NCBI GenBank assembly: GCA_937142015.1
Contig: CAKZQY010000254.1
Location: forward strand, 1-33,599
Direction of reading: 5' to 3'
DNA length: 33,599 nt
Source: an uncultured Halobacteria archaeon
GTDB lineage: Archaea; Halobacteriota; Halobacteria; Halobacteriales; Haloferacaceae
Translations under genes and position numbers: made by a program
Notes under the pieces: generated by a model
Told to the model about the DNA's origin: nothing
The model's input: the letters and a program-made list of their open reading frames with translations, nothing else
The model's database searches: none
In this document: positions 4,416-8,678 of the stretch, piece by piece
Numbering within the stretch: the stretch's first letter is position 1
How the letters are laid out: each line of letters starts with the position of its first letter

Positions 4416-5336
4416 TCACCCGGTCGTCGTCGCGTTCGACGCGCTCGATCTGGCGGCAGCCTCGTACCACGACGGCCGGTCGACGTTCGTCTCACCCACG
4501 TCCGCGACACGGAACGTCCGGGTGATCGAACGGAGCCGTCCGCCTCGTTCGCGGACGTACGATACCTGGAAGCTGCGGACGACCCCGCTGGCGGTCACCG
4601 TGCCAGTCAGCGTGACGTTGCGCGCCTCGTACGTCGGCGAGAACGCCGCCGCCCCGCGGACACGGAACACCGCCGGATCGACGGCGATCCGCTCGACGGC
4701 AGTCAGGTTGGCGATGCGGAAGGCGAACGCCACTGCGCCCTCCCCAGTCGTGTCAGACCGCGCGATAGGCGGGAACTCCGTGCGGTCGAACGTGTACGAG
4801 ACGGAGCCGTTCGGATCGACGACGCGGGAGACCGTGACACTCGCGTTCCCCCAGTAGGTGACGTTCTCCGGGATGAAGCCGACGCTCCGTGGGTTCGATC
4901 CCGTGACCGTCTGTTCGACTGCCAGCCGTCCGATCCGCCCACGCCCGTCGTCTTCGAGCCTGATCCGACTGTGTGCCACGACAGTCCCGTTCAGCGAACG
5001 CACGGAGATCGTCTGGACGATCGTCCGAGAGGCTCCGGAGAGCCCCTGCTCGTGTGCGCCGGCCAACAGCAGCGGGTCCGCGCTCGTCGTCGTGAGACTC
5101 GGCGGCAACGACTCCGCCAGCGTCGGCGTGACCGTCGGTGTCGGCACTGCCGTCGGTGTCGGAGACGGAGACTGCGTCAGTGTCGGCGACCGTGTCGGCG
5201 TCCCCGTCAGCGCCGGGTTCACCGTGTTCGCCTCGTCTGCACCCGCGCCGCCGCCGAACCCGTCGCCGATCCCGACGCTCCCACACCCCGCGAGCGTGAG
5301 GAGCACGGCGACGACGAGGATGTGAACGTGCCGCAC
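4416..5336 (-). CDS. Secreted lipoprotein, haloarchaeal type, function unknown
   Basis: I place the start at GTG 5334-5336, giving 306 residues that open with VRHVHILVVAVLLTLAGCGS: a short basic N-terminus, a hydrophobic core and a lipobox (LAGC) whose Cys should be lipid-modified. The longer upstream frame adds about 49 residues with no signal-peptide logic. After the Cys come a Gly-rich stretch and a Thr/Pro/Ser linker (residues about 40-75, TPT/SPT repeats) typical of haloarchaeal cell-surface proteins. The remaining 220 residues look beta-rich, with NGT, NVT, NAS, NGS and NLT sequons for surface N-glycosylation. This layout recalls the unnamed haloarchaeal DUF lipoproteins, but I cannot assign a function. 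The stop is 43 bp before the carboxyltransferase start on the same strand, so co-transcription is possible. The 296-bp spacer 5337-5632 separates it from the divergent CHAT gene. Confidence 0.8.
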   Translation of the reverse strand: MRHVHILVVAVLLTLAGCGSVGIGDGFGGGAGADEANTVNPALTGTPTRSPTLTQSPSPTPTAVPTPTVTPTLAESLPPSLTTTSADPLLLAGAHEQGLSGASRTIVQTISVRSLNGTVVAHSRIRLEDDGRGRIGRLAVEQTVTGSNPRSVGFIPENVTYWGNASVTVSRVVDPNGSVSYTFDRTEFPPIARSDTTGEGAVAFAFRIANLTAVERIAVDPAVFRVRGAAAFSPTYEARNVTLTGTVTASGVVRSFQVSYVRERGGRLRSITRTFRVADVGETNVDRPSWYEAAARSSASNATTTG

Positions 5337-5632: not shown

Positions 5633-7900
5633 ATGGAAGAGACGTGGCTCGACGACGGGATTCGAGTGACAGACGCGGCGAAGAACACCGTCGTCGTCGA
5701 GACGGAGGGTTGGTCGCCGGGGGGCGACCCCCCGTCGGTCGCAGAGACGTTAGCGGCGGTCCAGACGGGGCCAGACGACCCGAACCTCGTGACCTCGGGG
5801 GTCGTCGAGCGGCTGCGCTACCCGTTAGTCACGACGGAGTTGATCGAGATCGACGGGAGAGACAGGCTCCAGTTGGCCACCGAGGAGGAGCGACTCGGCG
5901 GGGGGTCGTACCTCCTGCGGGCAGACGCGAACGTCCGGCTGTTCGTTCGGTTCGACGGTCCGGCGAGTGTGCGACTGACGACGCCGACGGACGGAGACCG
6001 GCGGTACGAGCTCCAGTTCCCGACGCCGACGCCGGTGTCGATGGCGTTCGAGAGCCGGGTCGACGTGCCGGACGAGACGGTGACGGTCCCGCCGACGCCG
6101 GAGGGGACGGCGACCGCGCTGTCGGTCACGTCCGTCGCAAACGAGACGACCTCACCGGACCGCACGTGGCCGACGCTCCGGAACCAGCCGCCGCGGATCG
6201 AACTCGGCGACGAGACGGACGTGCCGGCGTCCGTCCGCCGTCGTCGCCCGGACACTGGGATCGAACTGGTCGTGCCGCCGGATCTGCGGTACCTGTTCAC
6301 CGGCGCGTCGCTGATCCACTACCTCGGCGCGGCGGTGCGGACGGAGAGCGGCGCGGACCCACGACTCCTCGTCGACGGACAGACGGAGCCACTCGACACG
6401 CTGCCCTCGTATCAAGAGCAGACGGCCTCACTGCTCGCGCGCTGTTTCTACCTCGACTGTGTTGCTCGCTCGGCCGGCCCGCACGGGGAGCGTCTCACCG
6501 TCGCGTGGGTGTTCGACGAGTTGGGGTTAGACGCCGAGCGGCTGTACGAGGCTCCGCTCGCCGAGCGGGTGCAGCGGTACCTCGCGGTCCCGTTCGAACA
6601 GGTCGCCGACGCGTTCCCTCCGTGGCACTTCTCGATGTACGTCGCACCGAGGGTCGAACACGTGCCGACGCTGCCACACCTCCTCCAAGACGTACCACAC
6701 TTCTTCCTGCCGTCCGCGGACGACCTCTCCGAGGCGGAGTGGCTGGAGCTCTCCTCGAACGACGGATTCGCGCGCGAGCTGCCGACGCCCCCAGCGGACG
6801 GACGGCGAGGCGACCAGTCGGCTCGGGGGACACCCGACCCGTCGACAGAGCGGCCGTCCGACCAGTCGACAGAGTGGCCGTCCGACCAGTCGACAGAGCG
6901 GCCGTCCGACCAGTCGTCCGGAGACGCACCCGACCACCCAGACGACCGCGACGGTCTCCGTCGAGTGACACGCGAGGTGTCGAACGTCGACCTCGTGCAG
7001 CCGGAGTTGGGACCCGGGCAGGAGCACGGCTGGCTGGCCGAGGACGTGCCAATCGAGGTGTTCAAGACGTTCCCCGAGGCCTACGAGAACCGCCAGAAGT
7101 ACCTCGACGACGAGGACGCTCGCCTCACAGTCGCCGCGGTGCTCAACGACGCTGAGATGCGGGCGGAACACGACCGGGCCATCGAACACTACCGCGACCG
7201 CGCCGAGGAACTCAACATCGACATCACTGTCGCGGAGAACGTCGAGGTCGCGGAACTCGCACGCACGTTCGAGCAGCGCCACGACTTGGTCCACTTCATC
7301 GGCCACCGCGACCCGGAGGGCTTGGAGTGTGCCGACGGCTACCTCTCGACCAGCAGCCTCGCGGAGTCGAACGCGCGGACGTTCTTCCTCAACGCGTGTG
7401 GCTCCTACCCGGAGGGGCGAGAGCTGATCCGGCGCGGCTCCATCGCGGGCGGGGTCACCTTCGAGAGCGTGCTCGACAGCGAGGCGGCACGCGTCGGTAC
7501 GACATTCGCGCGGCTGATCGTGCTCGGGTTCTCCGTCAAGCGCGGTCTGGACTACGCCCGCCGACAGCTCCTGATGCCGAAAGACTACGCGGTCGTCGGC
7601 GACGGCTCACACGTCGTCGCACAGAACGACTCGCTCGTCCCGCCCAAACGGTGGCTGTTCGAAGTCGACGCGGACACGTTCCGGATCGTCGCGGAGAGTC
7701 TCTCGATGTGGTCACACGGCGGCTACACCCGCTCGACACTGTTAGACGACCCCGACGACCGGTACCTGTTCGGGACCGACCGCGTGTACACCGTCTCGCG
7801 GGCGGAACTCGACGAGTACCTCTCGATGGCCCAGTCACCTATCGTCTACGACCAGCAGCTCCGCTGGCCGACCGATCTGCGCGAAGAAATTATCGGGTGA
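5633..7900 (+). CDS. CHAT-domain (caspase-fold) protein
   Basis: The 755-residue protein starts at ATG 5633. The frame stays open 48 codons upstream, but that stretch is AT-richer and basic, unlike the acidic protein. The C-terminal third is a CHAT domain, the caspase-like fold of separase/HetF-type proteases: residues 552-558 are LVHFIGH (His554/His558) and residues 587-590 are NACG with Cys589, followed by GSIAGGVTFESVLD and a terminal MPKDYAVVGDG strand. The His-Cys spacing of about 31 fits a catalytic dyad. The N-terminal 380 residues are unrecognised and may be a sensor region. A hinge at residues 406-429 is three 8-residue repeats (PSDQST core). No TPR is visible, unlike TPR-CHAT. Known CHAT proteins act as proteases in regulated cell death, CRISPR-linked immunity or signalling; the role here is unknown. 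The closest neighbours are the lipoprotein (divergent) and the small exported protein (convergent). Confidence 0.8.
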   Translation: MEETWLDDGIRVTDAAKNTVVVETEGWSPGGDPPSVAETLAAVQTGPDDPNLVTSGVVERLRYPLVTTELIEIDGRDRLQLATEEERLGGGSYLLRADANVRLFVRFDGPASVRLTTPTDGDRRYELQFPTPTPVSMAFESRVDVPDETVTVPPTPEGTATALSVTSVANETTSPDRTWPTLRNQPPRIELGDETDVPASVRRRRPDTGIELVVPPDLRYLFTGASLIHYLGAAVRTESGADPRLLVDGQTEPLDTLPSYQEQTASLLARCFYLDCVARSAGPHGERLTVAWVFDELGLDAERLYEAPLAERVQRYLAVPFEQVADAFPPWHFSMYVAPRVEHVPTLPHLLQDVPHFFLPSADDLSEAEWLELSSNDGFARELPTPPADGRRGDQSARGTPDPSTERPSDQSTEWPSDQSTERPSDQSSGDAPDHPDDRDGLRRVTREVSNVDLVQPELGPGQEHGWLAEDVPIEVFKTFPEAYENRQKYLDDEDARLTVAAVLNDAEMRAEHDRAIEHYRDRAEELNIDITVAENVEVAELARTFEQRHDLVHFIGHRDPEGLECADGYLSTSSLAESNARTFFLNACGSYPEGRELIRRGSIAGGVTFESVLDSEAARVGTTFARLIVLGFSVKRGLDYARRQLLMPKDYAVVGDGSHVVAQNDSLVPPKRWLFEVDADTFRIVAESLSMWSHGGYTRSTLLDDPDDRYLFGTDRVYTVSRAELDEYLSMAQSPIVYDQQLRWPTDLREEIIG
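6848..6919 (+). repeat. In-frame tandem repeat, 3 x 24 bp, in the CHAT gene
   Basis: Units begin at 6848, 6872 and 6896 and share the core CCGTCCGACCAGTCG. They encode an 8-residue unit around PSDQST between the unknown N-terminal region and the CHAT domain. A partial copy precedes the first unit. Confidence 0.95.
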
Positions 7901-8049
7901 TCGCGGACGCCCGTGGTCGAGCGACCACGGACGTTCAGTTTCGGACGACCGCGAACGTCCGGATTCGAACGACGACGCGCGTTCGGCCTCGGACGACCGC
8001 GGCGGCCCCCGACACGTCCGGTGTCGAGCGCGTGACTGTCGACGCGAAG

Positions 8050-8355
8050 CTACGGACCGATCCCACCGAGGTCGTTCTCGGCCGTATCGACACAGTCGTT
8101 GTCCACTATGCCGAGGAAGTCGAGCAGCCACCCGAGGAAGCTACAGCTGTCCAGTTCCGCTGTCGTCTCGTTGGCTGTGCCGCCGTCCTCTCGGGTGTCC
8201 GAGATGTCCTCCCCGGGCGCTGCGGCGGCGACGGTACCGACCTGCGCGCCGAGTACTGCGACGACGAGCGCGAGCGCGAGACCCAACCGCAACCCGACGC
8301 GGAGACGGTCGCGTGTCCGTGATGTGGCGTGCCGTGCCGACTCTCTCCGTGCCAT
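8050..8355 (-). CDS. Small exported or membrane-anchored protein, unknown
   Basis: The 101-residue protein starts at ATG 8353-8355. An Arg-rich N-terminus (residues 1-20) precedes one hydrophobic segment (residues 21-45, VGLRLGLALALVVAVLGAQ) ending in an AxA-like site (VAAAA), as in a Sec signal peptide. The predicted mature part is about 55 residues, acidic, with two Cys (SCSFLG and NDCVDT) 20 residues apart that could form a disulphide, around a short hydrophobic stretch (LGWLLDFLGIV). A strong TATA box about 30 bp upstream argues that the gene is transcribed as a leaderless mRNA. It converges on the CHAT gene with 149 bp between stops. I do not recognise a family. Confidence 0.6.
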   Translation of the reverse strand: MARRESARHATSRTRDRLRVGLRLGLALALVVAVLGAQVGTVAAAAPGEDISDTREDGGTANETTAELDSCSFLGWLLDFLGIVDNDCVDTAENDLGGIGP

Positions 8356-8379: not shown

Positions 8380-8390
8380 TATATATTTTT
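8380..8390 (-). promoter_or_regulatory. TATA box of the small exported protein gene
   Basis: On the minus strand the sequence reads AAAAATATATA, centred about 30 bp upstream of the ATG at 8355, which places transcription start at or next to the start codon. Confidence 0.65.
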
Positions 8391-8529: not shown

Positions 8530-8678
8530 GCGGTCGTCGCGGGGAGATCATCAGTCGGGCGCGGTCGTCGCGGGGAGACCGTCGGTCGGCGACGTGATCG
8601 TCGGTCGGCGGGAGTCGTTCGGCGACGCGGTCGTCTGCCGACGGGAGTCGTTCTGCGACGCGGTCGTCCGCCGAGCGG
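8530..8678 (+). repeat. Degenerate intergenic tandem repeats (31-bp and 33-bp units)
   Basis: Two copies of a unit starting GCGGTCGTCGCGGGGAGA begin at 8530 and 8561. Units of 33 bp begin at 8591 and 8624, with a partial one at 8657; these share GGGAGTCGTTC and GACGCGGTCGTC. There are no spacers, so this is a minisatellite rather than a CRISPR array. Confidence 0.8.

Follow-up and report, generated by a model that had tools for sequence, protein, structure and literature searches.

The CHAT-family gene of the window (the whole stretch of 33,599 nucleotides analysed here, from a haloarchaeon) lies tail-to-tail with a gene for a microprotein ending in Gly-Pro (GP), and this gene pairing is strongly supported as a recurrent property of the family. 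Given that the pair recurs in dozens of genomes, with many copies per genome, the microprotein is probably a dedicated partner of the protease. The mechanism is a proposal; that a cytosolic CHAT-type cysteine protease takes the GP-tailed microprotein as its ligand or substrate, with the tail as the recognition element, is a reading to which we give about even weight. The initial annotation of the gene was sound in what it observed, and its interpretation is supported in part. The features concerned are collected in Table 1.

Table 1. Features of the CHAT-family gene and the convergent microprotein gene in the window; domain assignments are predictions.
Feature	Position	Strand	Basis
CHAT-family protein, 755 aa	5633..7900	+	open frame, homologues, AlphaFold2 model
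Beta-sandwich, residues 1-144, no assigned family	5633..6064	+	N-terminal model, pLDDT 91.6
Region packing in part with the caspase domain, residues 205-381	6245..6775	+	fold alignments
Disordered linker, residues 388-448	6794..6976	+	pLDDT <50
CHAT/caspase-type catalytic domain, residues 450-697	6980..7723	+	fold matches
His558 codon, dyad histidine	7304..7306	+	kept in 112/113 relatives
Cys589 codon, dyad cysteine (FFLNACGS)	7397..7399	+	kept in 112/113 relatives
Convergent microprotein, 101 aa: signal-peptide-like hydrophobic segment, Cys...Cys, C-terminal Gly-Pro	8050..8355	-	
Microprotein C-terminal Gly-Pro codons	8053..8058	-	GP enrichment, codon degeneracy
TATATA, ~25-30 nt before the microprotein ATG	8380..8385	-	read in sequence

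The CHAT-family reading frame has no internal stop. No Pfam family matches the window protein at E<=10, searches with PADLOC and NCBIfam returned nothing, and a sequence search of the PDB gave no relevant match; the Pfam CHAT family (PF12770) is matched weakly by 12 of 37 relatives (best 2.9e-4), and none of the CHAT-family copies in the window's own genome, nine in total, scores above the cut-off of a curated CHAT HMM. The predicted CHAT membership of the window protein comes from fold and motif. An AlphaFold2 model of the full protein (pLDDT 85.9, pTM 0.85) matched activated SAVED-CHAT, separase, gingipain R and Craspase in fold searches, with Z scores of 19.8-20 for gingipain R, 16.5 for SAVED-CHAT, ~16 for separase and ~13 for TPR-CHAT/Csx29, and a Foldseek E of 7e-7 to SAVED-CHAT (PDB 8tl0). 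On this model the C-terminal half is a predicted clan-CD cysteine peptidase with the caspase/hemoglobinase fold. His558 and Cys589 are both retained in 112 of 113 distinct relatives, as are the motifs H...GH and N-A-C-x-S that carry the dyad, and His554, Cys566, Gly569 and Ser591 are invariant. The initial annotation had proposed a CHAT-type cysteine peptidase with a complete dyad at these two residues; the positions are correct, and fold matches and intact motifs agree with the assignment.

The N-terminal 380 residues had been described as matching nothing familiar. This stands for residues 1-144, which form a beta-sandwich when the N-terminus is modelled alone, with a best fold match (Z 7.4, to the YidC periplasmic domain and mutarotase-like sandwiches) below the level that can be trusted; it does not stand for the whole of residues 205-380. 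Alignments with gingipain, separase and TPR-CHAT reach back as far as model residue 329 or, in some cases, 219-225, so part of that region belongs to the composite caspase fold, and it is probably, on the model, an extra subdomain of the kind found in those three. There is no evidence of a TPR or STAND module, as had been stated, the N-terminal half being a beta-sandwich and not helical repeats. The fold matches listed for the N-terminal model include neither SAVED nor other sensor folds, which does not exclude SAVED, and inspection of the window protein found no signal peptide. The linker is largely encoded by 24-bp tandem repeats (6834-6916), and two further short tandem-repeat arrays lie around the locus (7922-8002 and 8530-8678).

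Homologues of the CHAT-family protein are found in 46 of 60 related genomes, and a GTDB-based scan located relatives in 373 places. The family is chromosomal, multicopy and common in haloarchaea, yet absent from 14 of the 60, and is therefore neither a universal housekeeping gene, the distribution that the initial annotation had set against its own reading, nor a rare defence island. The protein may be an executioner set off by a sensor domain, as that annotation supposed of CHAT proteins in general. No match was found among 50,697 phage records, and a phage origin was rejected; plasmid-borne copies of the CHAT/microprotein pair do exist. Distant members of the family occur in the same phylum outside haloarchaea (L217-L220) and have no GP microprotein, and at one locus (L221, 2318-9309) the family is present as three tandem copies.

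To survey the neighbourhood of the family, we took 116 intervals of sufficient length downstream of CHAT copies and listed the open reading frames of at least 25 aa on both strands. An exact Gly-Pro end was found in 74 of 357 frames on the convergent strand against 1 of 323 on the other (p ~2e-21), giving an exact GP-ended microprotein in 74 of the 116 intervals; the surveyed sequences are related by descent, so these counts are of loci and not of independent events. At ~8 further loci the GP is followed by up to 10 residues, bringing the total to ~82, whereas ~34 intervals are without a GP frame, many of them too short for one. A few microproteins lack the GP (L182, L205, L207), and some microproteins are left unannotated in RefSeq. 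The recurrent neighbours of the family are the microprotein, the regulator TbsP and DUF7504, and the suggestion that the small convergent protein might be a partner or target of the peptidase now has more than 100 surveyed loci behind the pairing. Two other suggestions did not survive. The Cys pair of the window microprotein is limited to a few subgroups, and it is the C-terminal Gly-Pro that recurs; the divergent lipoprotein gene (4416-5336, minus strand; weak DUF7537 match) was rejected as a partner, being replaced upstream by a different, lipA-like gene at the orthologous loci L037, L045 and L053.

The Gly-Pro end is selected as protein. All four Gly codons, four Pro codons and three stop codons occur among the relatives, and dN/dS for the microproteins is mostly 0.2-0.6 (17 of the 18 tested pairs fall below 1; the closest pairs, with few substitutions, are uninformative). 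For the window microprotein and its ortholog in L045, dN is 0.34 and dS 1.10 (dN/dS 0.31), and 47 of their 93 differences are third-position changes; in the orthologue L037 no microprotein was found. A DNA-level cause of the GP end was ruled out by the codon degeneracy together with the variable spacing between the two genes, which ranges from -23 to +460 bp. The same observations bear on whether the tail-to-tail layout serves antisense regulation of the protease gene by a convergent transcript, the peptide being secondary. Stop codons within ~30 bp of each other or overlapping at many loci would fit such an arrangement, but the range of spacing and a Gly-Pro end kept through degenerate codons at dN/dS below 1 make it highly improbable. 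The TATATA upstream of the window microprotein is placed as for a leaderless haloarchaeal transcript and may act in its transcription.

The microproteins themselves are diverse. Those of Haloferacales consist of a hydrophobic segment and a tail, those of Halorussus and Haladaptatus have ~44 aa, and those of Natrialbales are soluble proteins of 40-50 aa that end in RVSTYGGP or similar, in many Natrialbales without a membrane segment. N-terminal parts vary by lineage and the C-terminal end is common to all forms; the shortest, of 20-29 aa and ending GGSxYTGP, are reduced to hardly more than the GP-ended tail, an indication that the function lies in this part. Since most forms have one hydrophobic segment, and bacterial CHAT proteases activate membrane effectors, the microprotein might be a membrane-active effector that the CHAT protease restrains or releases, in a toxin-like or suicide module comparable to gasdermin-protease or toxin-antitoxin pairs. 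We consider this unlikely: in many Natrialbales the microprotein keeps the VSTYGGP tail without any membrane segment, and typical suicide modules do not show such a broad presence on chromosomes, at conserved metabolic loci.

One of the microproteins led to DUF7503 (PF24335), a 42-residue Pfam family that surfaced as its weak match. A search with this profile found DUF7503 in 40 of the 60 genomes and in Haloferax volcanii, and all 30 loci that were fetched are tail-to-tail with a CHAT-family gene. DUF7503, with its hydrophobic segment and GP end, is the same kind of microprotein as the GP-tailed CHAT neighbours. It is present in 40 of 46 genomes with the CHAT family and in 0 of 14 without (Fisher p 2e-9, uncorrected for kinship). 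The window microprotein has no match to the DUF7503 HMM, and 7 of 15 relatives match it weakly (best 0.0025). This co-occurrence, and the persistence of the pair across unrelated genomic contexts, plasmids and paralogues, speak against an ordinary housekeeping CHAT peptidase beside which the microprotein gene merely hitch-hikes, a reading that we judge very unlikely even though the distribution is widespread and chromosomal and synteny with glyA is conserved in some families. At L184-L203, DUF7504 is encoded directly upstream of many of the DUF7503-type CHAT copies, often in place of TbsP, and a response-regulator-like gene adjoins several; uniting DUF7504 with TbsP_N was rejected (profile comparison probability 0.2%).

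TbsP (PF19138/PF23336) is encoded downstream in the same direction at 99 of 120 CHAT copies, typically with the microprotein gene in between; the remaining copies are at contig edges (9), lack TbsP (11) or have it in the opposite direction (1). No TbsP gene adjoins the window copy or the orthologues in L037 and L045, and TbsP is also present in genomes without the CHAT family. TbsP-type regulators are expanded in the window's genus, with 12-23 copies per genome (G000, G001-G003) against mostly 1-3 in other genera.

The window's own genome offers a comparison at a smaller scale. The dyad is intact in eight of the nine CHAT copies, and a GP microprotein lies beside seven of these (C254, C138, C9, C359, C213, C201 and C176), with a few residues after the GP in C359, C201 and C176; for the eighth, C238, the contig ends 290 bp past the gene. 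In the ninth, C357 (L035), Gly and Pro replace the dyad residues, and in this single case both TbsP and a GP microprotein are absent; its sequence suggests a possible pseudo-protease. Among paralogues in the genus, microprotein similarity tracks the CHAT copy (Mantel r 0.46, 0 of 5000 permutations), a correlation that shows co-inheritance and not contact, as co-inheritance alone can give such a value.

In the mechanism that we propose, the CHAT protein would be a cytosolic clan-CD cysteine protease working with the tail-to-tail microprotein, whose C-terminal Gly-Pro tail it would recognise through physical contact. Either the tail would bind to the protease as a regulatory ligand or the microprotein would be cut as the protease's own substrate, and protease activity would be set in this way; the microprotein would thus act as ligand or substrate rather than as a stand-alone effector. 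Its signal-peptide-like segment suggests that it is membrane-inserted or exported in most lineages. TbsP, where adjacent, probably controls or reads the pair, and the window copy would work without an adjacent one. A C-terminal X-Pro resists most carboxypeptidases, which would suit a short tail. The soluble forms of Natrialbales favour recognition within the cell. Against the proposal, the membrane forms are predicted to have the N-terminus inside and the tail outside, which places the tail away from a cytosolic protease, although the two may still meet before export or after re-import. Also counting against it are the four distant homologues outside haloarchaea, L037 and the ~34 of 116 intervals, all without a GP microprotein, and the microproteins that lack the GP.

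The microprotein could also be the precursor of a secreted, GP-ended signal of 7-14 aa comparable to Phr or PapR, which the cytosolic CHAT protein would receive or process, with TbsP as the output. In each of the 20 DUF7503-type sequences checked, the hydrophobic core is followed by an A/V/S-x-A site that leaves 7-14 residues, so that a short peptide could be set free outside the cell, and tails specific to each paralogue and an adjacent transcription regulator also fit a signal. The site, however, comes from pattern matching rather than from a trained predictor; a membrane anchor whose short tail lies outside would account for the sequence as well, the Natrialbales forms have no export signal, and no peptide importer or extracellular protease was seen in the cassette, so that we regard the secreted signal as rather unlikely. 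A broader form, in which an archaeal family of peptide-signalling or peptide-gated proteases has each CHAT protein recognise its own GP-ended peptide through paralogue-specific tails, with TbsP as output, seems to us unlikely. If this broader reading is true, haloarchaea would have genome-encoded peptide signals with many parallel channels per cell.

Returning to the protease with its GP-tailed ligand or substrate, three unexplained haloarchaeal families (the CHAT relatives, DUF7503 and the TbsP neighbourhood) gain a function-shaped context, and a protease-microprotein pair present at least seven times in one genome raises questions of specificity and signalling that are little studied in archaea. 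The two-residue C-terminal motif is a mutable target, and the presence of DUF7503 in H. volcanii, a genetically tractable model, makes the question directly testable. In the open-access literature we found no description of the pairing: no paper combines "CHAT domain" with haloarchaea, halophilic archaea or Haloferax, and none names DUF7503, DUF7504 or DUF5821.

Among known systems, DUF7503 resembles the window microprotein in its tail-to-tail position with a CHAT gene, its hydrophobic segment and its GP end, although the window microprotein misses the HMM. Peptide pheromone precursors (Phr, PapR, SHP) are alike in having a tiny gene beside that of a cytosolic protein, a signal-peptide-like N-terminus and a short variable tail; unlike RRNPP-type signalling, the CHAT model has no TPR receptor or helical-repeat domain, and some microproteins have no export segment. 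With regard to bacterial gasdermin-protease pairs, no gasdermin-sized gene recurs beside the CHAT family. SAVED-CHAT (PDB 8tl0) shares the caspase-like CHAT domain and the His/Cys dyad, whereas the window protein has a beta-sandwich N-terminus without a confident fold match, no recognised SAVED and no CRISPR-type neighbours in view; TPR-CHAT/Csx29 of Craspase shares the composite caspase fold, but the window protein has no TPR repeats, and no gRAMP/Cas7-11, Csx30 or type III-E CRISPR neighbours were seen. Gingipains R and K give the highest Z (~19-20), the aligned part extending into residues 329-380, and are secreted, unlike a protein in which no signal peptide is apparent. Separase is likewise a clan-CD protease; the window protein has no helical-repeat arm and the microprotein is unlike securin, yet separase and securin, where a small regulator is dedicated to one protease, may serve as the working analogy for the pair.
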